From: Clostridia bacterium
Lineage (GTDB): Bacteria; Bacillota; Thermoanaerobacteria; Thermoanaerobacterales; Thermoanaerobacteraceae
NCBI GenBank assembly: GCA_012840485.1
Contig: DULG01000026.1
Span: 1 to 64,000 of the forward strand
Reading direction: 5' to 3'
Length of the DNA: 64,000 bases
Of the stretch, positions 8,390 through 35,451 are shown one piece after another. The position numbers were made by a program, and so were the translations under genes. The notes below the pieces were generated by a model. It saw only the letters and a program-made list of their open reading frames with translations. It was not told the DNA's origin and searched no databases. Within the stretch, counting starts at the first letter, position 1. Each line of letters begins with the position of its first letter.

Positions 8390-9511
8390 CTATAATAAAG
8401 CCAAGGGATTTTGTGTACCTTCTCGAGCATCAACAGGGATGACTTTTTCAATTATGCCATTTCTGTGTCCTATAAGATAACTTGTCATATTGGCAGTGGA
8501 GCAGGCGTGGTTTGGTATTATTTCAATTTTGCCACTTACTTTTATGTCAGTGTTACCTGTGACTTTTACTTTTCCAACTTCTTCAGAAAGGCTTTCTATT
8601 ATTAGTTCAGGATGACCTTTGACAATTCCATAGCTCTGTATTAAAGAACTTCCGTGAGCTCCTTTATCTAATCCTAAACCTTTACTTCCCACATTTATTA
8701 TAAACAAGTCTTCCTTGGGATGGGATATTACTGTAGCTAGTACAGTAAGAGCACATTTTTCTAAAGTAGTGACTCCTAGAGCCACTTGTATTGCATCGTA
8801 GAAGACATAATTTCCGGGTCTTAGTATATCGATAATTTTATCTCCAACTACAAAAGATGCTGTAGGAGTGCTTCCAGTTGCTACAATCTCAACGGGATAC
8901 CCTTCTTTTTTTAGAAGGGTTGCAGCTTTTGTGAGCGATTCTATTTCTTCGCGTGCTACTTTTTTTATTTCTTCAATGTTAGTTTTTGAATAAGCATGGC
9001 CTGGATGGGTGGCGATTCCCTTAAGTTTTAGATAGGTTAGTTTTTTTAGTTTTTCAGCAAGTTCAATTGCTTTTTCAGGTGCTACTCCAAAGCGGTGTAA
9101 ACCAGAGTCAATTATTATGAGATAATCAAAATAGGTATCTACTTTTTCACAGGCTTCTTCTACTTTTGTGGCAGCTTCAATTCCATCAAAGCTTAAAATA
9201 ATGTGGGAATTTTTTGCAAGCTTTATTATTCTTTCAATATTTTCTTTTGAGGCAACAGGATAAGCGACCATTATTTCTTTAAAACCTTTTTCTACTAGTT
9301 TTTCTGCTTCATCAATTGTTCCTACTAGAAATCCTTTTGCACCGTGATTTTGTTGTATTTCTGCTATAAAAGTGCTTTTATGGGTTTTGACCATAGGCCA
9401 CAGTTGTTTGCCATTCTTTTTGCACATCTCAGCCATTTCTTTTATGTTTGATTCCAATTTATCTAAGTCCACAAGAAAGGAAGGGGTTGGCAAGTCAAGT
9501 ATATTTTTCAT
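8390..9511 (-). CDS. PLP-dependent D-threonine-aldolase-like / alanine racemase N-terminal-fold enzyme
   Basis: This 373-residue protein belongs to the D-TA/DSD1 group of fold-type III PLP enzymes. The N-terminus LPTPSFLVDLDKLESNI and the MVKTHKS segment (Lys is the PLP Schiff-base residue in the family) are visible. The C-terminal H..C motif (NHACSTANM) holds the likely metal-binding His and Cys of these enzymes. Members cleave D-threonine or deaminate D-serine-type substrates; the exact substrate is uncertain. I prefer ATG 9511 (GAGGAG 11 bases upstream) over GTG 9523, which touches the Shine-Dalgarno. Confidence 0.8.
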   Translation of the reverse strand: MKNILDLPTPSFLVDLDKLESNIKEMAEMCKKNGKQLWPMVKTHKSTFIAEIQQNHGAKGFLVGTIDEAEKLVEKGFKEIMVAYPVASKENIERIIKLAKNSHIILSFDGIEAATKVEEACEKVDTYFDYLIIIDSGLHRFGVAPEKAIELAEKLKKLTYLKLKGIATHPGHAYSKTNIEEIKKVAREEIESLTKAATLLKKEGYPVEIVATGSTPTASFVVGDKIIDILRPGNYVFYDAIQVALGVTTLEKCALTVLATVISHPKEDLFIINVGSKGLGLDKGAHGSSLIQSYGIVKGHPELIIESLSEEVGKVKVTGNTDIKVSGKIEIIPNHACSTANMTSYLIGHRNGIIEKVIPVDAREGTQNPLALL

Positions 9512-9673: not shown

Positions 9674-9778
9674 GGAATTGAAGGTAAAATGCTAACGGAA
9701 TGGATAATAATGGGGAGATTATAAGAGATAGCTTTTTAAGTTATAAGGATTAATGGGGGTGAGAACAATGGGGTAGAG

Positions 9779-11209
9779 GTGATTCAGGGTTATACTGTGA
9801 TAAAAGACGGGATAAACAGATGGCGAATTCCTAAGTTTGGGAAAATGAGAGTGGATGCTGTTATTTATGTGAATGATGCGTTAAAAGAGTTTTTGCATGA
9901 GGATCAATCTTTGAGGCAGCTTACAAATGCGGCTAGTCTTCCCGGAGTTGTGGAGCCTGTGATAGGTATGCCGGATATTCACGAGGGATTTGGACTTCCA
10001 ATAGGCGGAGTTATGGCTATAGAAGAAAAAGGGGTTATTTCCGCGGGGGCTGTAGGGTATGACATCAATTGCGGGGTTCGACTTGTGAGAACCAACCTTG
10101 AAGCAGATTATTTTACAAAAGACCTTTTGTATAAGCTTATAGAGCGAATTGAACATTATGTTCCTACAGGAATAGGAAAAAAGGGAAAACACAAGGGTAT
10201 TACACGGGTAATTTTTGATGATGTAGTGCACAGTGGGGTAGAAGCGGTTATTAAAGCTGGTTTTGGGAAAAAATCAGATCTGGAGTATATTGAAGAAAAT
10301 GGTAGACTTTCAGGTGCTGATCTTTCTGCGGTATCAAAGGAAGCACAGGAAAGAGGCGAAGAACAACTTGGCACTTTAGGTGGAGGCAATCACTTTATAG
10401 AGATTCAACGAGTTGATTCTATTTTGGATGAAAAATTGGCAAGACAATTTGGGCTTTTTAAAGGGCAAATTGTTATTATGATTCACACGGGAAGCCGCGG
10501 ATTTGGGCATCAGATTGCTACAGATTATACAAAGGTTTTATGGGAAGCGGCGAAGAAATATGGAATTGAGGTTCCTGAAAAGGGACTTGCAGCTGCTCCT
10601 ATAAAGTCAAAGGAAGGGCAGAATTACTATAAAGCGATGGCGGCTGCAGTGAACTTTGCTTTTTCAAACAGGCAGATAATCATGTTTGATGTGATAAGGG
10701 CTTTTGAGGATGTTTTGAAAAAATCTGAGGAGTCTATGGGGTTCCAACTTGTGTATGACGTTGCTCACAATATTGCTAAATGGGAAGTACATGGCGGTAA
10801 GAGGCTTCTTGTCCACAGAAAAGGAGCCACAAGGGCTTTACCAGCAGGACATCCTCAAAATCCTTCTTTTTACAAAGAATCTGGGCATCCTGCTCTTATT
10901 CCCGGTAGTATGGGTACGGGTTCTTATGTGGTGGTTGGCACAGAAAAAGCGGCAGAGACCTTTTATTCTGTAAATCACGGAGCAGGACGAAGGCTTTCAC
11001 GAAATAAGGCTAAAAAAATCAGTAAAGAGGAATTTGAAAAGGCTATGGGGGATGTAATATACAATGTTCGGTCTTATAAAGATATCGCTGATGAGTCACC
11101 ACTTGCTTACAAAGACGTAGAAGAGGTTGTGTCTGTTCTTGAGAAAAGAGAAATTACTATACCTGTTGCTCGATTTGTGCCTCTTGCAGTTGTAAAAGGT
11201 GCAGATTAA
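9779..11209 (+). CDS. rtcB: RNA-splicing ligase RtcB
   Basis: This 476-residue protein matches the RtcB 3'-phosphate RNA ligase family. Visible blocks are MPDIHEGFGLPIGGV, GYDINCGVRL (the metal-binding Asp-Cys segment), GTLGGGNHFIEIQ (metal-binding His), MIHTGSRGFGHQI, and a C-terminal VNHGAGRRLSR that carries the His used for GMP attachment in the family. RtcB joins 2',3'-cyclic or 3'-phosphate ends to 5'-OH ends, in tRNA or rRNA repair. The start is GTG 9779, with a weak GGGGT upstream. The Nramp gene follows 22 bp downstream, probably co-transcribed, with no obvious functional link. Confidence 0.95.
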   Translation: MIQGYTVIKDGINRWRIPKFGKMRVDAVIYVNDALKEFLHEDQSLRQLTNAASLPGVVEPVIGMPDIHEGFGLPIGGVMAIEEKGVISAGAVGYDINCGVRLVRTNLEADYFTKDLLYKLIERIEHYVPTGIGKKGKHKGITRVIFDDVVHSGVEAVIKAGFGKKSDLEYIEENGRLSGADLSAVSKEAQERGEEQLGTLGGGNHFIEIQRVDSILDEKLARQFGLFKGQIVIMIHTGSRGFGHQIATDYTKVLWEAAKKYGIEVPEKGLAAAPIKSKEGQNYYKAMAAAVNFAFSNRQIIMFDVIRAFEDVLKKSEESMGFQLVYDVAHNIAKWEVHGGKRLLVHRKGATRALPAGHPQNPSFYKESGHPALIPGSMGTGSYVVVGTEKAAETFYSVNHGAGRRLSRNKAKKISKEEFEKAMGDVIYNVRSYKDIADESPLAYKDVEEVVSVLEKREITIPVARFVPLAVVKGAD

Positions 11210-25065: not shown

Positions 25066-25094
25066 TTGACTTGTTATTATTTAATAGATACAAT
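25066..25094 (+). promoter_or_regulatory. Promoter of pdxST
   Basis: TTGACT (25066-25071), 17 bases, TACAAT (25089-25094), 53 bases before the pdxS ATG. Confidence 0.65.
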
Positions 25095-25146
25095 TGATAT
25101 TAAGATACATACAAATACCAAGACAATTGTAAGGAGGAGTAGAACA

Positions 25147-26025
25147 ATGAATGAAAGGTATGAACTAAATAAAAATTTAGCCCAAATGCTAAAGGGTGGA
25201 GTCATAATGGATGTGACAACACCAGAACAGGCAATTATTGCGGAGAAAGCAGGTGCTGTTGCTGTCATGGCACTTGAAAGGGTTCCAGCTGATATTAGGG
25301 CAAGAGGGGGAGTTGCAAGAATGTCAGATCCTAAAATAATAAAGGAGATAAAGGCGGCAGTATCAATCCCTGTTATGGCAAAAGTTAGAATTGGGCATTT
25401 TGTGGAAGCACAGATTTTAGAGGCACTTGGGATAGATTTTATTGATGAAAGTGAAGTTTTAACCCCTGCAGATGAGATGTATCATATAAACAAATGGGAT
25501 TTTAAAGTGCCTTTTGTATGCGGTGCGCGAAACCTTGGAGAAGCACTAAGGCGTATAGGGGAAGGTGCTTCTATGATAAGGACAAAAGGTGAGGCAGGGA
25601 CTGGAAATGTAGTAGAGGCTATAAGGCATATGAGGATGATAAATGCCGAAATAAAAAGGCTTACAACTTTAAGGGAAGACGAACTTATGGCTGCTGCAAA
25701 AGAACTTCAGGCGCCCTATGACCTTGTAAAATATGTTGCACAACACGGAAGACTTCCGGTTGTAAATTTCGCAGCGGGAGGTATTGCCACACCGGCAGAC
25801 GCGGCACTTATGATGCAACTGGGTGCAGATGGTGTTTTTGTTGGTTCTGGAATATTTAAGTCACAAAATCCCGAAAAGATGGCAGAAGCTATAGTAAAAG
25901 CTGTAACCTATTACGACAAACCAGAAATATTGGCAGAGGTTTCAGAAGGATTGGGAGAAGCCATGCAGAGTATTGATATAAGAAAACTTGATGAAAAAGA
26001 TTTATATGCTTCAAGGGGATGGTAG
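25147..26025 (+). CDS. pdxS: Pyridoxal 5'-phosphate synthase, lyase subunit PdxS
   Basis: This 292-residue protein is nearly consensus along its length: [35 protein letters not shown], then [31 protein letters not shown], and GEAGTGN. The two reactive lysines of the family lie in VMAKVRIGH and [10 protein letters not shown]. It builds PLP from ribose 5-phosphate, glyceraldehyde 3-phosphate and ammonia supplied by PdxT. The start is ATG 25147 behind AAGGAGGAG. PLP made here could serve the PLP enzymes KamA and KamDE encoded just downstream. Confidence 0.98.
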
Positions 26026-26026
26026 T

Positions 26027-26590
26027 TTGCGCGTTGGAGTATTGGCAATTCAAGGCTCTGTTAGAGAACATATTGAAAAATTAAATCTTATAGATGGTGT
26101 AGAAGCTGTTTTGGCAAAAGACAAAAATACTCTGCTAAGCTTAGATGCATTAATTATACCGGGTGGCGAAAGTACTGCAATAGGGAAAATGATTGTAGAT
26201 TTTGGACTTAAAGAGGCTATTTTAAAGCTAAATGAGAGGAAAATTCCTATATGGGGCACTTGTGCTGGCATGATACTTATGGCAAAATATATAGTTAATG
26301 ATGACAAAGTGCACCTTGGAATAATGGATATTTCAGTTAAAAGAAATGCTTATGGTAGTCAACTTGACAGTTTTAAAACAAAGCTTATGATACCAGCAGT
26401 TTCTAATAATGAAATAGAGGCGGTTTTTATAAGGGCTCCGTATATAGAAAATGTAGGAAACGGTGTCAGAATACTTGCGAAGCACCAAGGTAAAATTGTA
26501 GCAGCACAGCAGAACAATTTACTTGCTACCGCATTTCACCCAGAACTAACAGATGATATATGCTTTTATAGATATTTTTTAAAGCTTTAA
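26027..26590 (+). CDS. pdxT: Pyridoxal 5'-phosphate synthase, glutaminase subunit PdxT
   Basis: This 187-residue glutamine amidotransferase reads VGVLAIQGSVREH, then PGGESTAIG, WGTCAGMILM (nucleophile Cys) and AFHPELTDD (catalytic His and Glu). The most likely start is TTG 26027, one base after the pdxS stop, with AAGGGGA upstream; this gives the normal family length. It feeds ammonia to PdxS. The downstream gap 26591-26712 has a T-rich stretch but no clear terminator, only the promoter of the next operon. Confidence 0.96.
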   Translation: MRVGVLAIQGSVREHIEKLNLIDGVEAVLAKDKNTLLSLDALIIPGGESTAIGKMIVDFGLKEAILKLNERKIPIWGTCAGMILMAKYIVNDDKVHLGIMDISVKRNAYGSQLDSFKTKLMIPAVSNNEIEAVFIRAPYIENVGNGVRILAKHQGKIVAAQQNNLLATAFHPELTDDICFYRYFLKL

Positions 26591-26632: not shown

Positions 26633-26662
26633 TTGTCAAAAATATTGATGGTGTGATATAAT
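26633..26662 (+). promoter_or_regulatory. Promoter of the lysine fermentation operon
   Basis: TTGTCA (26633-26638), an 18-base spacer ending in an extended TG (26654-26655), then TATAAT (26657-26662). The start point would be near 26669, about 45 bases before the aptamer. Confidence 0.7.
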
Positions 26663-26712
26663 ATAAGCGTAAATGATAAGCTTTACATTAATTTAAAAAA
26701 TTTAATACTTTT

Positions 26713-26893
26713 AAAAGCATAAATAGAGGAGCAGGCAAACAGGTACCTACAAGGTGTTAAGGAGGAGAACCTCCAATACTTGTGGCGAAGGTTTGTCTGC
26801 CGAAAGGTTATACTTGTTCTTGGGTATATCCTTGGGGGTGAACACAAAGTTCACCACTGTCATGGGTGAGAGCCCATGGAGCGCTATTTATGC
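26713..26893 (+). ncRNA. Lysine riboswitch (L box) aptamer
   Basis: A five-helix layout can be drawn. P1 is 26717-26726 with 26884-26893 (10 perfect pairs). P2 is 26731-26740 with 26791-26800. P3 is a hairpin around 26750-26784. P4 is 26806-26813 with 26824-26831. A further stem is 26837-26843 with 26849-26855, and the last hairpin is 26862-26866 with 26873-26877. Conserved L-box sequence is present: GCCGAAAGG after P2, CACTGTCAT before the last hairpin and GGAGCGCTAT at the 3' edge. It binds lysine and lies upstream of genes that degrade lysine. The 3' strand of P1 is also the 5' arm of the terminator that follows, so ligand binding should prevent termination. Confidence 0.92.
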
Positions 26894-26930
26894 AGTGAAA
26901 AGATTTTCATTGCATAAATAGCGCTTTTCT
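26880..26930 (+). terminator. Riboswitch-controlled terminator
   Basis: A perfect 15-bp stem (26880-26894 with 26911-26925) is extended by six more pairs (26895-26900 with 26905-26910) around an AGAT loop and followed by TTTTCT. Bases 26884-26893 are shared with P1 of the aptamer, so P1 and this hairpin exclude each other. Confidence 0.88.
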
Positions 26931-26949
26931 TATGGGAAAGGCTATTTAG

Positions 26950-26981
26950 GCACTGAAAATCTTTCAGTGCTTTTGTTTTTC
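26950..26981 (+). terminator. Second hairpin/terminator before kal
   Basis: A 9-bp stem (26950-26958 with 26962-26970) with a 3-base loop is followed by TTTTGTTTTT. It looks like an intrinsic terminator placed in tandem after the riboswitch terminator, ending about 30 bases before the first gene. Confidence 0.7.
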
Positions 26982-27008
26982 AAAAAAAATACAAGGGGGG
27001 GGATTTAC

Positions 27009-27395
27009 TTGAAGGCGATGATAAGGGTGCGCATGAGTTTGCATGATGCCCACTATGGAGGAAACTTAGTGGATGGGGCGAGAATTTTAAATCTTTTTGG
27101 TGATGTGGCTACAGAACTTTTAATAAGACACGACGGCGATGAAGGACTTTTTAGAGCGTATGATAGTGTTGAATTTTTGGCACCAGTATACGCTGGAGAT
27201 TTTATAGAGGCGACTGGTGAAATAGTACAAGTAGGAAATACTTCAAGGAAAATGGTTTTTGAAGCAAGAAAAGTCATAACAGCAAGACCTGACATTAGCG
27301 ATTCGGCGGCAGAAGTTTTAGATAAACCAATCGTTGTATGTAGAGCTAGTGGTACATGCGTAGTTCCAAAGGATAAGCAAAGGTATAAAAAATAA
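27009..27395 (+). CDS. kal: 3-aminobutyryl-CoA ammonia lyase
   Basis: This is a 128-residue hotdog-fold protein ([20 protein letters not shown]... [30 protein letters not shown]). It corresponds to Kal, which removes ammonia from L-3-aminobutyryl-CoA to give crotonyl-CoA, the last amino-removing step of lysine fermentation. TTG 27009 lies 6 bases after a run of eight G; ATG 27018 is an alternative start. It is the first gene of the operon and would receive any riboswitch-controlled transcript. Confidence 0.88.
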
Positions 27396-27412: not shown

Positions 27413-28231
27413 GTGGAAAAGTTGATAATAACTGCTGCCATATGTGGAGCGGAAGTGACAAAAAAGCATAATCCTAATGTACCTTATACAGTAGAAGAGA
27501 TGGTAAGAGAAGCAGAGGCAGCATATAACGCAGGAGCTAGCATTATTCACTTGCACGTCCGCTATGATGATGGGACACCTACTCAAGATAAAGAAAGGTT
27601 TAGGGAAGTCATTGAGGCGATTAAAGCAAAATGTCCAGATGTGATAATTCAACCTTCAACTGGTGGAGCAGTGGGAATGACTAGTGAAGAGAGGTTACAG
27701 CCTATCTACTTAAAGCCGGAAATGGCTTCTTTAGACTGTGGTACTTTAAATTTTGGAGGCGATGAAATATTTGTAAATACTGAAAATATGATAATAGAGT
27801 TTGCGCTTAAGATGAATGAGCTTGGGATAAAGCCAGAACTTGAAGTCTTTGATAAAGGCATGATTGATATGGCAATACGACTTCAGAAAAAGGGTTACAT
27901 AAAGGCGCCTATGCATTTCAATTTTGTCATGGGTGTAAATGGCGGTATTTCGGGAGAAATGAGAGATTTCCTGTTTTTAAAAGAAAGTATTCCAGAGGGC
28001 AGCACTTTTACTGCAACGGGGATAGGAAGATACGAGTTTCCAGTTGCTACAATGGCTATACTGACTGGAGGTCATGTCAGAGTTGGCTTTGAAGACAATG
28101 TGTACATTGCAAAAGGAGTATTGGCAAAATCTAATGGAGAATTAGTTGAAAAAGTTGTAAGAATTGCGAAAGAATTAGGGCGAGAAATTGCCACTCCTAA
28201 TGAAGCTAGAAAAATATTGGGATTAACGTAA
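27413..28231 (+). CDS. kce: 3-keto-5-aminohexanoate cleavage enzyme
   Basis: This 272-residue protein is of the BKACE/DUF849 family. IIHLHVRYDDGTPTQD contains the zinc-binding His-x-His pair, and PEMASLDCGTLNFG and GHVRVGFEDNVYIAKG are family signatures, the last with a metal/active-site Glu. It condenses 3-keto-5-aminohexanoate with acetyl-CoA to give 3-aminobutyryl-CoA and acetoacetate. The start is GTG 27413 behind GGAGGGG, 17 bp after kal. Confidence 0.93.
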   Translation: MEKLIITAAICGAEVTKKHNPNVPYTVEEMVREAEAAYNAGASIIHLHVRYDDGTPTQDKERFREVIEAIKAKCPDVIIQPSTGGAVGMTSEERLQPIYLKPEMASLDCGTLNFGGDEIFVNTENMIIEFALKMNELGIKPELEVFDKGMIDMAIRLQKKGYIKAPMHFNFVMGVNGGISGEMRDFLFLKESIPEGSTFTATGIGRYEFPVATMAILTGGHVRVGFEDNVYIAKGVLAKSNGELVEKVVRIAKELGREIATPNEARKILGLT

Positions 28232-28279: not shown

Positions 28280-29320
28280 ATGATGGGATGCAAATATGGA
28301 AGCCATAGAGTAATTGAACCAAAAGGAGTTTTACCACAAGCTGCATACAAGATTTCTAATGACATGAGTGTACTTTATGATAATGAGATACTCATAGATG
28401 TCATAGCTTTAAACATAGATTCTGCAAGCTTTACTCAGCTTAAAGAAGAGGCTGGTGGAGATGTAGAAAGAATAAAAGCTAAAATTTTAGAAATAGTCCA
28501 TGAAAGAGGTAAAATGCAAAATCCAGTTACAGGTTCAGGCGGAATGCTGATAGGACGGGTTGAAAAAATAGGAGATGCATTGGTAAGAAAGAGAGACTTG
28601 AAAGTAGGAGATAAGATAGCAACACTTGTTTCACTCACACTTACACCTCTTAGAATAGATGAAATTTTATCTATAAAGCTTGGCATAGATAGAGTTGAAA
28701 TAAAAGGTAAAGCTATACTTTTTGAAAGTGGAGTTTATGCTAAGCTTCCTGAAGACATGGAAGAAACTCTAGCATTAGCTGCTTTAGATGTAGCGGGAGC
28801 TCCCGCACAAACTGCAAAACTTGTAAAACCAGGTCAGAGTGTTTTGGTTCTTGGGGCTAATGGAAAATCAGGCATGCTTTGCTGTTATGAGGCAAAAAAG
28901 AGAGTGGGTCCTACCGGTAAAGTTATAGGTGTTGTAAGAAGGGAAGAGGCAAAAAGGAAAGTAGAAGAATTAGACATTTGCCATGAAGTTATAATAGCAG
29001 ATGCTCAAAAACCGTTGGAGGTTTTGAACGAGGTATTGAGAGTAAATAAAGGCAAAGAAGTGGATATTGCAATAAACTGCGTCAATATTCCTAATACAGA
29101 GATGGCTACAATTTTGCCGGTGAGAGATGAAGGAATCGCTTATTTCTTCTCCATGGCGACAAGCTTTACAAAGGCAGCTTTAGGAGCAGAAGGTGTTGGA
29201 AAAGACATCACTATGATAATAGGCAATGGTTATACAAAAGACCATGCGGAAATTACTTTGCAAGAATTACGCGAAAATGAAAAATTAAGAAAAGTTTTTG
29301 AGGGAATGTATGCTAAATAA
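28280..29320 (+). CDS. kdd: L-erythro-3,5-diaminohexanoate dehydrogenase
   Basis: This 346-residue NAD(P)-dependent oxidoreductase reads GCKYGSHRVIEPKGVLPQAA at the N-terminus, then a Rossmann segment VLVLGANGKSGMLCCYEAKK, and NCVNIPNTEMATILPVRDEG. It deaminates 3,5-diaminohexanoate oxidatively to 3-keto-5-aminohexanoate. The start is ATG 28280 behind GTAGGAGGAG; an in-frame ATG follows at once. Its place between kce and kamA is the conserved order of the pathway. Confidence 0.93.
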   Translation: MMGCKYGSHRVIEPKGVLPQAAYKISNDMSVLYDNEILIDVIALNIDSASFTQLKEEAGGDVERIKAKILEIVHERGKMQNPVTGSGGMLIGRVEKIGDALVRKRDLKVGDKIATLVSLTLTPLRIDEILSIKLGIDRVEIKGKAILFESGVYAKLPEDMEETLALAALDVAGAPAQTAKLVKPGQSVLVLGANGKSGMLCCYEAKKRVGPTGKVIGVVRREEAKRKVEELDICHEVIIADAQKPLEVLNEVLRVNKGKEVDIAINCVNIPNTEMATILPVRDEGIAYFFSMATSFTKAALGAEGVGKDITMIIGNGYTKDHAEITLQELRENEKLRKVFEGMYAK

Positions 29321-29354: not shown

Positions 29355-30614
29355 ATGAGAGTAAATAGAAGATATGAACTTTTTGGGCATGTATCAGACA
29401 AAGATTGGAATGATTGGAAATGGCAAATTAGGAATAGAATCGAAACAGTTGAGGAACTAAAAAAGTATTTACCTTTGACAAAAGAGGAAGAAGAAGCGGT
29501 TTCTAAAACATTGCAAACTCTAAGAATGGCCATAACACCTTATTATCTTTCTTTGATAGATCCGAATGACCCAAATGACCCTATAAGGAAAAGGGCGGTA
29601 CCTACAATAGATGAACTTTACAGGGCTCCCGAAGATTTAATAGATCCACTCAGTGAAGATGTAGATTCGCCGGTGCCAGGCCTTACTCATAGATATCCTG
29701 ATAGGGTTTTGATGTTGGTTACTGACCAGTGTTCAATGTATTGTAGACATTGTACAAGAAGAAGATTTGCAGGTCAAACTGATGCACCTGTTCCAATAGA
29801 TAAGATAGAAAAGCAGATTGAGTATATAAGAAATACGCCGCAAGTCAGAGATGTGCTTATATCTGGGGGAGATCCATTAACTCTTTCTGATTCAAGATTG
29901 GAACAGATTATAAAAAAATTGAGAGAGATACCTCATGTGGAAATAATAAGAATAGGGTCTTCTACACCCGTTGTATTGCCACAAAGGATTACGCCAGAGC
30001 TTGTGAATATGCTAAAAAAATACCATCCAATATGGTTAAATACCCACTTTAATCATCCACATGAAATTACTGAAGATTCTAAAAGAGCTTGTGAAATGTT
30101 GGCAGATGCAGGTATACCTCTTGGGAATCAGACAGTGCTTCTAAGAGGAGTAAATGATTGCGCACATGTCATGAAAAAACTTGTTCATGAATTGGTGAAA
30201 ATAAGGGTAAGGCCCTATTACATTTACCAGTGCGATTTGTCATTTGGACTTTCCCACTTCAGAACTCCTGTTTCAAAGGGAATCGAAATTATTGAGGCTT
30301 TGAGAGGTCATACATCAGGATTTTGCGTTCCTACCTTTGTGGTAGATGCACCAGGCGGAGGAGGAAAAATTCCAGTAGGTCCTAATTATGTAATATCTCA
30401 AAGCCATGATAAAATAGTTCTTAGAAACTATGAGGGAGTTATTACGACATATATTGAACCGCAAAATTATACGCCAGGTCCTTGTGTGTGTGATGAAGAA
30501 CCACAGAGGATAACTGGGGTTGCAGGATTAATGCAAGGGGATAAAACTGCTACAATAGAACCTGAAGAGTTAGAAAGGAAAAAGAGAAGGAGAACAAATG
30601 AGCAAGATTCTTGA
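29355..30614 (+). CDS. kamA: L-lysine 2,3-aminomutase
   Basis: This 419-residue radical SAM enzyme carries the iron-sulphur motif Cys126-x3-Cys130-x2-Cys133 in [18 protein letters not shown]-binding and zinc-binding regions follow ([16 protein letters not shown], with the PLP lysine in GGGGKIP, and a Cys-rich tail PGPCVCDEE). It converts L-lysine to L-beta-lysine, the committed step of the pathway. The start is ATG 29355 behind AGGGGGAT. It overlaps kamB by 17 bases. Confidence 0.97.
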
Positions 30615-31620
30615 ATTGATTAAGGAATACCGTACTATTTCTATAATAGGAATGGCAAAAAATGTAGGTAAAACTACTGTGCTAAATCATATTTTGAGTA
30701 AGGCCAGGGGTAAGTATACCCTTGGTCTTACCTCTATAGGAAGAGATGGAGAAGAGTATGATCAAGTAAGTTTTTTTCCAAAGCCGCGGATTTATGTAGA
30801 AGAAGGGAGTTATATAGCTACGGCAAAAGAGGCTTTGTTAAATAGCGATATTACAAAGGAAATAATTGTGACGACAGGATTTTATACTCCAATGGGAGAA
30901 GTAATAATTGCCAAAGCTTTAAGTGATGGCTATGTAGATTTGGCGGGGCCTTCTATAAATAAAGAAATTGCAGAAGTTTGTGAGCTTTTGCTAGAATTAG
31001 GTTCTGATAAGGTCATTATAGATGGAGCATTGAGCAGGAAAACACAGGCTTCTCCTTCTGTTTCAGAAGCTACAATACTGTCTACAGGTGCCGTTTTATC
31101 CTATAATATGGAAGAAACGGTTAAAAAGACAGTTTTTACTGTAAAACTCTTGTCAATTGAGGCGGAGAAAGATCAAGAAGTGGTAAAAGTGGCGGAAAGC
31201 ATTTTAGATACTGCTCGACTGGGATTTATATACAAGAGCAAAAGTTATAAGAGTATAAGAATAGCTACAGCAATAGATTCGTCTAAAGAAATTGTTGAAA
31301 ATTTAAAAGATGTTACTCATGTGGTCATAAAAGGAGTAATTACTGATAGATTAATTGAAGATGTTATGAAAAGTACCAATAAATATAAGGGAGTAACTTT
31401 TCTAGCGGAAGATGCTACAAAGTTATTTTTAAAGGAGGAGACATTTTTAAAGTTTCAAAAAAGTGGAGGAATTTTTAGAGTGTTAAAACCCATAAACTTA
31501 ATTTGTGTCATGATAAATCCTATTTCACCTTTAGGATATTCTTATGATAAAGATGAGTTTTTAACTCAGTTAAAAAAAGAAATTAATTTGCCTGTTTTTG
31601 ATGTGATAGGTGGTGATTAG
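30598..31620 (+). CDS. kamB: Lysine 5,6-aminomutase reactivase subunit KamB
   Basis: This 340-residue protein has an N-terminal P-loop, [10 protein letters not shown], near residues 18-27. The family is found only beside lysine 5,6-aminomutase genes and is thought, with KamC, to exchange damaged cobalamin cofactor; I know this as an annotation rather than from any motif visible here. The start is ATG 30598 within the end of kamA (GAAAAAGAGAAGGAG upstream), and the gene overlaps kamC by about 11 bases. Confidence 0.82.
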
Positions 31621-33088
31621 TATTAAATTTTTAACAGAAAAAGGAAGAGAACAGATAGGGTTTAATTATGTAATAGCAAAATTACAGGTTATAACCCCTT
31701 ATGGGAAAGAGGAGTTAAAGAGCATAGAGCCCTTTAAAAGAGAAGAAAAAGGCAAGCTTTTAAAAGAGTATGAGTATATTGAATCAATGAAGAAAAGTTT
31801 AGAAAAAGACAAAGAGTTATTTTATAAAATTTTAAAAATTCTCTTCAAAATAAAAGATATAAGAAATAGCATAAAGAGATGTAAAAATGGTGAAATTTTA
31901 GATGAAGTAGAACTTTATGAAATAAAATTATTTTGCCTTTTGAGTGAAGAATTGCGCACTATGGTAGAGAGATTAAAACTTGATATAAAAGACATAAAAT
32001 TGAAATCTACGGAATCTATTTTAGACTTGCTTGACCCTCAGAGAAAAAGAATTTCTGCTTTTCACATATATGACGACTATTCTGAAAGGCTGAAAGAGCT
32101 ACGAAAGAAAAAAAGGGAAATTGAAAGGCAAATATTTTTGGAGACGCAAAAAGAGAAAATAGAAGAGTTAAAAGAAAAAAGGTTAGGGGTAGTAATTTTA
32201 GAACAACAGGAAGAATTAGAAATAAAGGAAAAACTCTCTAAAGAATTGTTGGGGTACGCTGATACACTAGAGAAGAATATAAAAGCCATAGGACGTTTTG
32301 ACTTTCTGATGGCAAAAGCTAAATTGGCAGCAGAATATGGGGGAGTAAAACCTAACATAAATGATGATATAAAGATTGTCTTTAAAAATGTGATAAATCC
32401 TCAAGTTTTAGATATTTTAAAGTCTCAAGGTAAAAAATTTACTCCTGTAAGTCTGGAGTTGAAAAAAGGAACTACTGTTTTAACAGGTGCAAACATGGGA
32501 GGAAAAACTGTAACATTAAAAACCATTACGTTAAATCTTTTATTAGGCATGTTGGGTTTTTTTGTGTTTGCTGAAGAAGCTTCTTTTCCAATGTTAGATT
32601 TTGTACATTTTGTTTCTGAGGATTTACAATCTGTCTCAAGGGGATTAAGTAGTTTTGGTGCAGAAGTAATTAAATTGAAAGAGATATTAGAGGATGTAAA
32701 AAAAGGGACAGGATTTATTGCTTTGGATGAGATAGCAAGGGGAACAAATCCACAAGAAGGTGCGCATATTGTAAAAGCTATTTCGCGGTATTTAAATGGC
32801 TTTTCTTCTATAACTTTATTATCTACTCATTATGAAGGAATTGTTGAAGAAGATATGGTCCATTATCAAGTAGTTGGGCTTAAAAATGTCAATTTTGGAA
32901 TGTTAAAACAAAAAATTAATATGAATAGAGGTAATTCTATAGAAATTCTTCAAGATCATATGGACTATAGTTTGGAGAAGGTAGATTCCTTCTGTGAAGT
33001 TCCAAAGGATGCTTTAAATATTTGTAAAATATTAGGGCTAGAAGAAGTTGTAGAACTTGCTGAAAAATACTATGAGAAGGAGGAGTGA
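31610..33088 (+). CDS. kamC: MutS-like ATPase KamC, lysine 5,6-aminomutase reactivase
   Basis: This 492-residue protein ends in a MutS-type ATPase domain: Walker A LTGANMGGKTVTLKT near residue 295, Walker B GFIALDEIARGTNPQEGA, and LLSTHYEG. It lacks the mismatch-recognition, connector and SMR domains of MutS and MutS2. The middle has a coiled-coil lever (RKKKREIERQIF...). In this operon context it is KamC. The start is uncertain between GTG 31610 and GTG 31613, both overlapping the kamB stop. Confidence 0.83.
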   Translation: MVISIKFLTEKGREQIGFNYVIAKLQVITPYGKEELKSIEPFKREEKGKLLKEYEYIESMKKSLEKDKELFYKILKILFKIKDIRNSIKRCKNGEILDEVELYEIKLFCLLSEELRTMVERLKLDIKDIKLKSTESILDLLDPQRKRISAFHIYDDYSERLKELRKKKREIERQIFLETQKEKIEELKEKRLGVVILEQQEELEIKEKLSKELLGYADTLEKNIKAIGRFDFLMAKAKLAAEYGGVKPNINDDIKIVFKNVINPQVLDILKSQGKKFTPVSLELKKGTTVLTGANMGGKTVTLKTITLNLLLGMLGFFVFAEEASFPMLDFVHFVSEDLQSVSRGLSSFGAEVIKLKEILEDVKKGTGFIALDEIARGTNPQEGAHIVKAISRYLNGFSSITLLSTHYEGIVEEDMVHYQVVGLKNVNFGMLKQKINMNRGNSIEILQDHMDYSLEKVDSFCEVPKDALNICKILGLEEVVELAEKYYEKEE

Positions 33089-33091
33089 TAT

Positions 33092-34651
33092 ATGAAAAGC
33101 AAGCTCAATTTAAATTGGGATATCGTAAATAAGGCAAGAGAATGTGCGAGAAATGTGGCAATAGATACACAAAAATTTATTGATGCCCATACTACTGTTG
33201 CGATTGAAAGGACAGTGTGTAGGCTTTTAGGAATAGATGGTGTGGATGACATGGGAATCCCTCTTCCTAATGTTGTGGTTGACAATATAAAAAATGGAGG
33301 GGGACTTTCACTTGGAGCAGCGATATACATTGGCAATGCTATGCTTTATACAGGACTTACTCCTCAGCAAATAGCTGAAAAAATTGGCAGAAATGAGCTG
33401 GACTTAGCTAAAATACCAATGGCAGATCTGTTTGAAATAAAACTAGCAGTGCAAGAAGTTGCAATAAAGACTGTAGAGAAGATAAAAGAAAACAGGAGAA
33501 AAAGAGAAGAACTCTTAAAAAAGTACGGTGATAAAGAAGGGCCACTTCTTTATTTGATTGTAGCGACAGGCAATATTTATGAAGACATTGTGCAGGCTCA
33601 AGCTGCAGCAAGGCAAGGTGCAGATGTCATTGCAGTCATTAGGACTACAGGACAAAGTCTTTTAGACTATGTGCCCTATGGAGCTACTACTGAAGGTTTT
33701 GGTGGTACTTATGCTACTCAAGAAAATTTCCGCCTCATGAGAAAGGCTTTAGATGAGGTTTCTGAAGAGGTGGGAAGGTATATAAGGCTTTGCAATTATT
33801 GTTCTGGCCTTTGTATGCCGGAAATTGCTGCTATGGGGGCTTTAGAGAGATTAGATGTCATGCTAAACGATGCTCTTTATGGGATTCTCTTTAGAGATAT
33901 AAATATGAAGAGAACAATTATAGACCAATATTTTTCAAGGATTATAAACGGGTTTGCAGGTATTATTATAAACACTGGAGAAGACAATTATTTAACAACT
34001 TCTGATGCCTATGAAGAAGCCCATACAGTGTTAGCATCCCAGTTAATAAATGAGCAATTTGCTCTTATGGCAGGAATTCCTGAAGAACAAATAGGATTGG
34101 GCCATGCTTTTGAAATGAATCCTGATATCAAAAATGGATTTTTATATGAACTTGCACAGGCACAGATGGCAAGAGAAATATTCCCGAAGGCACCATTAAA
34201 ATACATGCCTCCTACAAAGTACATGACAGGAAACATTTTTAAAGGTCATGTACAGGATGCGATGTTCAATATCGTGACCATAATGACAAAACAGAAAATA
34301 CACCTTTTGGGTATGCTTACAGAAGCTATTCACACTCCTTTTATGTCAGATAGGGCTTTGTCAATTGAGAGCGCAAGATATATATTTAACAATATGGCAG
34401 ATATAGCTGATGAGATATACTTCAAAGAGGGAGGAATAATTCAGCAAAGAGCTAATGAAGTCTTAATTAAGGCTTATGAATTATTAAAAGAAATTGAAAA
34501 GGAAGGACTCTTTAGAACATTAGAGCAGGGTAAGTTTGCAGGAATTAAAAGGTCAATGAATGGAGGAAGAGGTCTAGAAGGAGTGGTGGAGAAGGATCCA
34601 AACTATTTCAATCCCTTCATAGACCTTATGCTAAGAGGTGATAGGCAATGA
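33092..34651 (+). CDS. kamD: Lysine 5,6-aminomutase, alpha subunit
   Basis: This 519-residue protein reads along the large TIM-barrel subunit of the adenosylcobalamin- and PLP-dependent enzyme. Examples are DAHTTVAIERTVCRLLGIDGVDD near the start, VIRTTGQSLLDYVPYGATTEGFGGTYATQENFR in the barrel, and MPPTKYMTGNIFKGHVQDA later. It moves the terminal amino group of beta-lysine from C6 to C5, giving 3,5-diaminohexanoate. The start is ATG 33092 behind AAGGAGGAG; the stop shares ATGA with kamE. Confidence 0.97.
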   Translation: MKSKLNLNWDIVNKARECARNVAIDTQKFIDAHTTVAIERTVCRLLGIDGVDDMGIPLPNVVVDNIKNGGGLSLGAAIYIGNAMLYTGLTPQQIAEKIGRNELDLAKIPMADLFEIKLAVQEVAIKTVEKIKENRRKREELLKKYGDKEGPLLYLIVATGNIYEDIVQAQAAARQGADVIAVIRTTGQSLLDYVPYGATTEGFGGTYATQENFRLMRKALDEVSEEVGRYIRLCNYCSGLCMPEIAAMGALERLDVMLNDALYGILFRDINMKRTIIDQYFSRIINGFAGIIINTGEDNYLTTSDAYEEAHTVLASQLINEQFALMAGIPEEQIGLGHAFEMNPDIKNGFLYELAQAQMAREIFPKAPLKYMPPTKYMTGNIFKGHVQDAMFNIVTIMTKQKIHLLGMLTEAIHTPFMSDRALSIESARYIFNNMADIADEIYFKEGGIIQQRANEVLIKAYELLKEIEKEGLFRTLEQGKFAGIKRSMNGGRGLEGVVEKDPNYFNPFIDLMLRGDRQ

Positions 34652-35451
34652 GCAGCGGACTTTACTCAACAGAAAGAAAAGATTATGACAAAACACTTGA
34701 TTTGACTAGAGTTAAGCCTTATGGAGATACAATGAATGATGGGAAAGTTCAGTTGAGCTTTACTTTGCCTGTACCTTATGGGGCGAAAGCTGTAGAAGCA
34801 GCTAAGCAGTTAGTGAAGAAGATGGGTTTAGAAAATCCAATGGTAGTGTATCATACTCCTTTGGACAAAGATTTTACTTTTTTTGTTGTATATGGTAGTT
34901 CAATTCACACTGTAGATTATACTTCTATTCATATAGAAGAGCTAGAGATAAAGGCGATGACAATGGAGGAAGTTAATGAATATATTAAGAAACATATAAG
35001 AAGAAAAATTGTAGTAATAGGGGCTACTACGGGTACAGACGCCCATACAGTGGGACTAGATGCTATTATGAACATGAAAGGATATGCAGGTCATTACGGA
35101 CTTGAGAGGTATGAGATGATAGAGGCTCACAATCTAGGAAGCCAGGTTCCTAATGAGGAATTTGTCAAAAAAGCTATCGAATTAAAAGCAGATGCTCTTT
35201 TGGTTTCTCAAACAGTTACGCAAAAGGAGATTCACATAAAAAATTTGACCCATCTTGTAGAACTTCTTGAAGCAGAAGGCATAAGAGATAAGGTCCTTTT
35301 GATATGTGGTGGTCCTAGAATAACCCATGAACTTGCCAAGGAATTGGGATATGATGCGGGATTTGGCCCAGGTAAATATGCAGATGATGTAGCTACCTTT
35401 ATAGTGACTGAAATGGTTAAAAGAGGGATAAAAGGCTTGAGGGATATGTAA
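34648..35451 (+). CDS. kamE: Lysine 5,6-aminomutase, beta subunit
   Basis: This 267-residue subunit has a cobalamin-binding motif TGTDAHTVGLDAI (axial His133) and Lys144 in MNMKGYAG, which matches the position of the PLP-binding lysine of the Clostridium sticklandii beta subunit as I remember it. A distal ALLVSQTVTQKE and LICGGPRI complete the B12 Rossmann-like domain. ATGA overlap with kamD indicates equimolar synthesis. Last gene of the operon. Confidence 0.97.
   Translation: MSSGLYSTERKDYDKTLDLTRVKPYGDTMNDGKVQLSFTLPVPYGAKAVEAAKQLVKKMGLENPMVVYHTPLDKDFTFFVVYGSSIHTVDYTSIHIEELEIKAMTMEEVNEYIKKHIRRKIVVIGATTGTDAHTVGLDAIMNMKGYAGHYGLERYEMIEAHNLGSQVPNEEFVKKAIELKADALLVSQTVTQKEIHIKNLTHLVELLEAEGIRDKVLLICGGPRITHELAKELGYDAGFGPGKYADDVATFIVTEMVKRGIKGLRDM

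Follow-up and report, generated by a model that had tools for sequence, protein, structure and literature searches.

A lysine riboswitch placed ahead of genes that consume lysine raises the question of how a single ligand-binding domain could let RNA polymerase pass when two predicted intrinsic terminators lie between it and the first gene. Such a leader is present in the window (the whole stretch of 64,000 nucleotides analysed here), which belongs to a Thermoanaerobacter-type genome. The initial annotation had read this leader as an ON switch, in which lysine stabilises the closing helix of the aptamer, P1, and blocks a terminator. The anatomy of the leader, the conserved overlap of P1 with the terminator and the content of the operon all speak for that reading; it is nevertheless incomplete, as the exchange between P1 and the first terminator (T1) leaves a second one (T2) unexplained.

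The Lysine Riboswitch and Its Operon

The following elements make up the upstream part of the leader.

26633-26662, + strand: promoter TTGTCA-18-TATAAT with TG before the -10 element (11/12 consensus match; -10 region conserved in six congeners)
26716-26894, + strand: lysine riboswitch aptamer (RF00168; 90.8 bits, E 1.4e-22; lysine binding predicted)
26717-26726, + strand: P1 5' strand GCAUAAAUAG (ten Watson-Crick pairs with 26884-26893)
26884-26893, + strand: P1 3' strand CUAUUUAUGC, common to the 5' arm of T1 (sequence and folding)

The Rfam lysine covariance search, proposed as a check when the leader was first described, matched RF00168 over its full length (model positions 1-182), with a score far exceeding the gathering threshold (30 bits), and this match was the only one to RF00168 in a search of the whole genome. 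Membership in the lysine class is indicated both by this match and by the eight lysine-related genes downstream. The ten perfect pairs reported earlier for P1 were all recovered (10/10 Watson-Crick). The interval between promoter and aptamer carries a block, TGATAAGCTTTACAT (window positions 26676-26690), that is invariant in 6/6 kal-type leaders of Thermoanaerobacter. Directly upstream of the riboswitch lie pdxS and pdxT (25066-26590), involved in PLP synthesis; lysine aminomutases use PLP, so this neighbourhood may be functional.

Downstream, the operon kal-kce-kdd-kamABCDE comprises eight genes, and each product (8/8) exceeds its NCBIfam cut-off for a lysine-fermentation function.

27009-27395, + strand: kal, 3-aminobutyryl-CoA ammonia lyase (NF052388; TTG start by homology, aligned in two congeners)
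27413-28231, + strand: kce, 3-keto-5-aminohexanoate cleavage enzyme (NF052387)
28280-29320, + strand: kdd, L-erythro-3,5-diaminohexanoate dehydrogenase (NF052381)
29355-30614, + strand: kamA, lysine 2,3-aminomutase (TIGR03820)
30598-31620, + strand: kamB, aminomutase reactivase subunit (NF052386)
31610-33088, + strand: kamC, aminomutase reactivase ATPase (NF052383)
33092-34651, + strand: kamD, lysine 5,6-aminomutase alpha (NF052384)
34648-35451, + strand: kamE, lysine 5,6-aminomutase beta (NF052385)

None of the eight was seen to encode a CoA-transferase, so the "complete" lysine fermentation path ascribed to the operon is complete for the lysine-specific steps only.

A Strand Shared by P1 and the First Terminator

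26879-26926, + strand: terminator T1, 22 pairs, tail TTCTT (-31.6 kcal/mol, z -10.3; terminator scan)
26912-26921, + strand: strand C, a segment of the T1 3' arm, GCAUAAAUAG, with the same sequence as the P1 5' strand

The terminator had been described as a 21-bp hairpin at 26880-26925; it exists, with the slightly larger extent given above. Its z-score was computed against dinucleotide shuffles, and at this value a terminator arising by chance was rejected as unlikely. Sequence and folding agree with the earlier statement that the P1 3' strand lies within the 5' arm of the terminator, where its partner is C. As C and the P1 5' strand are identical, the three strands can form either P1 or T1, two mutually exclusive helices. 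For the leader ending at 26931, the predicted energy is -98.3 kcal/mol with T1 and -80.1 kcal/mol with P1 enforced. T1 is thus better than P1 by about 18 kcal/mol at equilibrium, which means that the switch must be kinetic.

The location of the P1 3' strand inside the terminator 5' arm, conserved in congeners, is the hallmark of ON switches of the pbuE type. In lysine riboswitches of the OFF type, the P1 3' strand acts as the antiterminator by pairing with the terminator 5' arm, and there is no overlap of P1 with the terminator; here the strand does overlap it.

Comparison within the genus points the same way. Conservation of the overlap in relatives had been named as a check, and the same arrangement was found in 6/6 kce-bearing Thermoanaerobacter genomes, each of which has it in the second, kal-type riboswitch, while four congeners lacking kce carry only the other, non-kal-type lysine riboswitch. 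In one of the six (G010), a C-G to T-A change affects both sides of the terminator stem and leaves a G-U pair in P1. The remaining 19 genomes searched in the family each contain a higher-scoring lysine riboswitch of the non-kal type, and the one examined (L004) precedes lysA. The window genome retains lysA, 83% identical to that of a congener, and the RF00168 search found no lysine riboswitch before it (L229 1000-1500, contig C6 of G000). In a sister genus, a kce gene of 71% identity (G017:C1:2798942-2799751) coexists with a sole lysine riboswitch located elsewhere, so the linkage of riboswitch and pathway is not constant.

A Second Terminator and the Proposed Helix X

26948-26972, + strand: terminator T2, 11 pairs, tail TTGTTTTT (terminator scan; predicted probability 0.94 with P1 open, 0.01 with P1 closed)
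26900-26962, + strand: helix X, proposed antiterminator, pairing the C region (26900-26930) with 26934-26962 (27 pairs, probability 0.94; z -8.0; covariation in relatives)

T2, an intrinsic terminator between T1 and the kal start (27009), had been overlooked, as had its connection to P1, helix X. If the leader worked through the P1/T1 switch alone, T2 would end transcription with or without lysine. The C side of T1 is complementary to the 5' flank and arm of T2, GGCUAUUUAGGCACUGAAAA. In folding calculations with the P1 3' strand blocked, the remainder was predicted to fold as one long hairpin, with the probability of helix X rising from 0 to 0.94 and that of T2 falling from 0.94 to 0.01; with P1 open, T1 and T2 were predicted together. 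Folding at 65 C weakened the effect and left its sign unchanged (T2 at 0.86 open vs 0.27 closed). In a length-by-length trace, helix X appeared from about 26945 and reached 0.88 by 26960, ahead of the synthesis of the T2 3' arm. The difference between the T1 and P1 states shrinks to 9.6 kcal/mol for the leader ending at 26984, because helix X stabilises the P1 state. Both components of a two-terminator relay are hence found in the leader, namely a downstream intrinsic terminator and a pairing of C with the T2 5' side that removes T2, the latter predicted by folding and accompanied by covariation in relatives. In these models, helix X may also double as a latch against re-invasion of P1 by C.

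A simpler ON switch would do without the relay: lysine would block T1 via P1 only, T2 would be weak or vestigial and mostly read through, and helix X would have no role. The conserved overlap of P1 and T1 is what such a switch requires, and both folding and the terminator scan rate T2 much weaker than T1. Against it, the window has an intact T2, as do two congeners (G002 and G003), and in all three kal is the first gene; in G007, G008 and G010, whose first reading frame downstream is something other than kal, T2 is missing or not clearly recognisable, so it does not occur throughout even this genus. The wider set of leaders bears on the same question.

Leaders of kal and kce Genes in a Wider Set of Relatives

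A set of 64 leaders was assembled from kce loci in GTDB genomes with RF00168 matches mapped alongside by coordinates, and was enlarged by searching Clostridiaceae and the Vallitalea group for KAL; the aptamers were located by Rfam matches, except in L224 and L225, where a regular expression was used. In 64/64 leaders, a hairpin was found that overlaps the P1 3' strand. T2 was detected in 46 of the 64; the first hairpin is followed by a T-rich stretch in 14 of these and lacks one in 32. The 18 leaders in which T2 was not detected indicate that the P1/T1 pair alone can suffice, as the simpler switch would have it. In the 32 leaders without a T-run after the P1-overlapping hairpin, on the other hand, no terminator other than T2 was detected, so that switching there may depend chiefly on the relay. 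Alternative rules for calling T2 gave 47 T2-like terminators rather than 46 and chose a different hairpin in L037 and L203.

In 42/46 leaders with T2, the expected number of pairs in helix X was 8 or more when P1 was closed and below 3 when it was open. These values were scored on transcripts ending at the T2 loop, since equilibrium folding with the whole of T2 failed to separate the two states in most Clostridiaceae. In full-length folding with P1 closed, T2 was still predicted to dominate in 34/46 of these leaders; helix X would there have to be metastable and act, if at all, during transcription.

Two variants deserve mention. In a Eubacterium MAG (L050), kce is preceded by two lysine aptamers, at 8959-9133 and 9730-9905, both with a P1-overlapping hairpin and the second less than 100 nt from the gene. 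In four other leaders (L051, L079, L081 and L091), the second terminator, some 55-135 nt beyond the P1 3' strand, repeats the 3' end of the aptamer (AAGCGCTATTG or GAGCGCTATTG), and the sequence of these four suggests that T2 may have originated by partial duplication of the aptamer tail.

Covariation of C with the T2 Flank

The duplex of the T2 flank with the outer half of C was compared with duplexes formed after swapping flanks among leaders. Across 28 dereplicated leaders, a leader's own flank gave -6.10 kcal/mol and swapped flanks -3.73 kcal/mol (z -6.5, p 5e-5), a comparison in which kinship is only partly controlled, by dereplication. The signal persisted at z -3.4 to -6.0 under stricter dereplication and without Thermoanaerobacter, and the other side of the hairpin, used as a negative control, gave z -0.1. 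Different leaders maintain the pairing with different sequences, e.g., GATGGC with GCCATC, GGATAG with CTATCC, and ATTAATAG with CTATTAAT. The complementarity of C and T2, part of which could descend from a duplication of T1, appears from the covariation to have been maintained after its origin. This covariation of C with the T2 flank, together with the leaders in which T2 is the sole detected terminator, makes the switch without a relay an unlikely account.

Other Lysine Riboswitches as Controls

As controls, 32 further lysine riboswitches were taken from these genomes or from the family. A terminator-like hairpin overlapping P1 was found in just one (1/32), where it is weak and followed by a stronger, non-overlapping terminator. 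Closing of P1 changed the sequestration of the terminator 5' arm by a mean of -0.19 in the controls and +0.20 in the kal/kce leaders, i.e., with opposite sign (Mann-Whitney p 3.7e-7). In most OFF leaders among the controls, as in the kal/kce leaders where T2 persists, a terminator was predicted to dominate in either P1 state. Ordinary OFF logic was rejected as unlikely for the window leader, given the lack of P1 overlap in the controls and their opposite sequestration sign.

More broadly, it is very improbable that lysine raises termination here in the manner of biosynthesis leaders, or that the aptamer has lost lysine binding and no longer responds. Such a loss would accord with the scores of Thermoanaerobacter kal aptamers, which reach 84-98 bits against RF00168 vs 128-134 bits for the other lysine aptamers of the genus; the score in the window is nonetheless far over the gathering cut-off. 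P1 and T1 share a strand, so that a ligand stabilising P1 opposes T1, the sign of sequestration is contrary to that of other lysine riboswitches, and the target genes consume lysine.

Proposed Mechanism

We propose, with a probability of roughly 0.7, that the riboswitch of the window activates transcription in response to lysine, its single aptamer governing two consecutive intrinsic terminators by chained strand exchanges. The exclusive pairings and the conservation of helix X were computed; we infer lysine binding, the sequence of steps and the sign of regulation. Without lysine, the P1 3' strand would pair with C to form T1, and in transcripts that extend beyond T1, C would stay occupied and T2 would form as well. 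With lysine, P1 would retain its 3' strand and T1 would remain incomplete. The free C would then pair with the 5' flank and arm of T2 as helix X, blocking T2 and preventing T1 from re-forming, and with both terminators off, polymerase would proceed into kal-kce-kdd-kamABCDE.

The core of this proposal, a relay from a single aptamer in which P1 held by lysine frees C as the antiterminator of a separate downstream terminator, is somewhat more probable than not. Many Clostridiaceae would use the relay alone, their first hairpin being no longer a terminator, and the window would combine both terminators as a double lock. Partly translational or RNA-stability control, with X and T2 acting mainly on RNase cleavage or on the accessibility of the kal start site and termination being secondary, would fit the kal ribosome site some 20-25 nt after T2 and the relative L037, which has an overlapping hairpin beside the kal start, no T-run and no T2, but it is highly improbable in view of the T-rich tails after both window hairpins and of the GGGGGGG site lying outside all predicted hairpins.

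The relay, if true, would explain how a leader can be inducible despite a second strong terminator, and could tighten OFF states. The leader illustrates how a class of aptamers known mainly from OFF switches can be rewired to ON, and relatives provide natural variants with a direct terminator, a relay, or both. Short leader variants can be assayed in vitro and could become lysine-induced parts for engineering.

Comparison with Known Systems

The initial annotation had left it doubtful whether this case had been described. The idea of ON control of lysine catabolism is in print: the accessible text of PMC5584792 presents kal/kce genes of two Thermoanaerobacter species, Clostridium sticklandii and Fusobacterium as positively regulated by lysine riboswitches, and that of PMC2258182, citing Rodionov 2003, mentions certain lysine riboswitches with ON logic that buries terminator stems. 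The ON switch as such is already known for kal/kce, including Thermoanaerobacter, and is well supported here by the leader sequence and its comparison with relatives. A riboswitch with two terminators or a relay was not found in the literature searched, whose coverage excluded most subscription journals and Rodionov 2003.

The published kal/kce riboswitches resemble the window in aptamer class, genes, genus and proposed positive regulation (PMC5584792), whereas the accessible descriptions (PMC5584792, PMC2258182) feature neither a second terminator nor helix X. In Thermoanaerobacter, the OFF riboswitch before lysA (L004 and others) shares the RF00168 class and occurs in genomes bearing the kal type; unlike the window leader, it lacks overlap between P1 and the terminator 5' arm, precedes a biosynthesis gene and is absent from the window genome. 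The pbuE adenine riboswitch of B. subtilis is, in the available portion of PMC7707468, an ON switch under kinetic control with a toehold hairpin, in which strand exchange through P1 makes the terminator. The window leader is likewise a proposed transcriptional ON switch with strand exchange through P1, and a kinetic decision is argued for both, but pbuE has another aptamer and ligand, one terminator and, within that portion, no described downstream relay helix. Finally, tandem riboswitches, among which the accessible text of PMC9481103 lists double lysine riboswitches with terminator stems, also make more than one termination decision in series; according to that text they employ several aptamers, each with its own platform, whereas in the window one aptamer is followed by two terminators.
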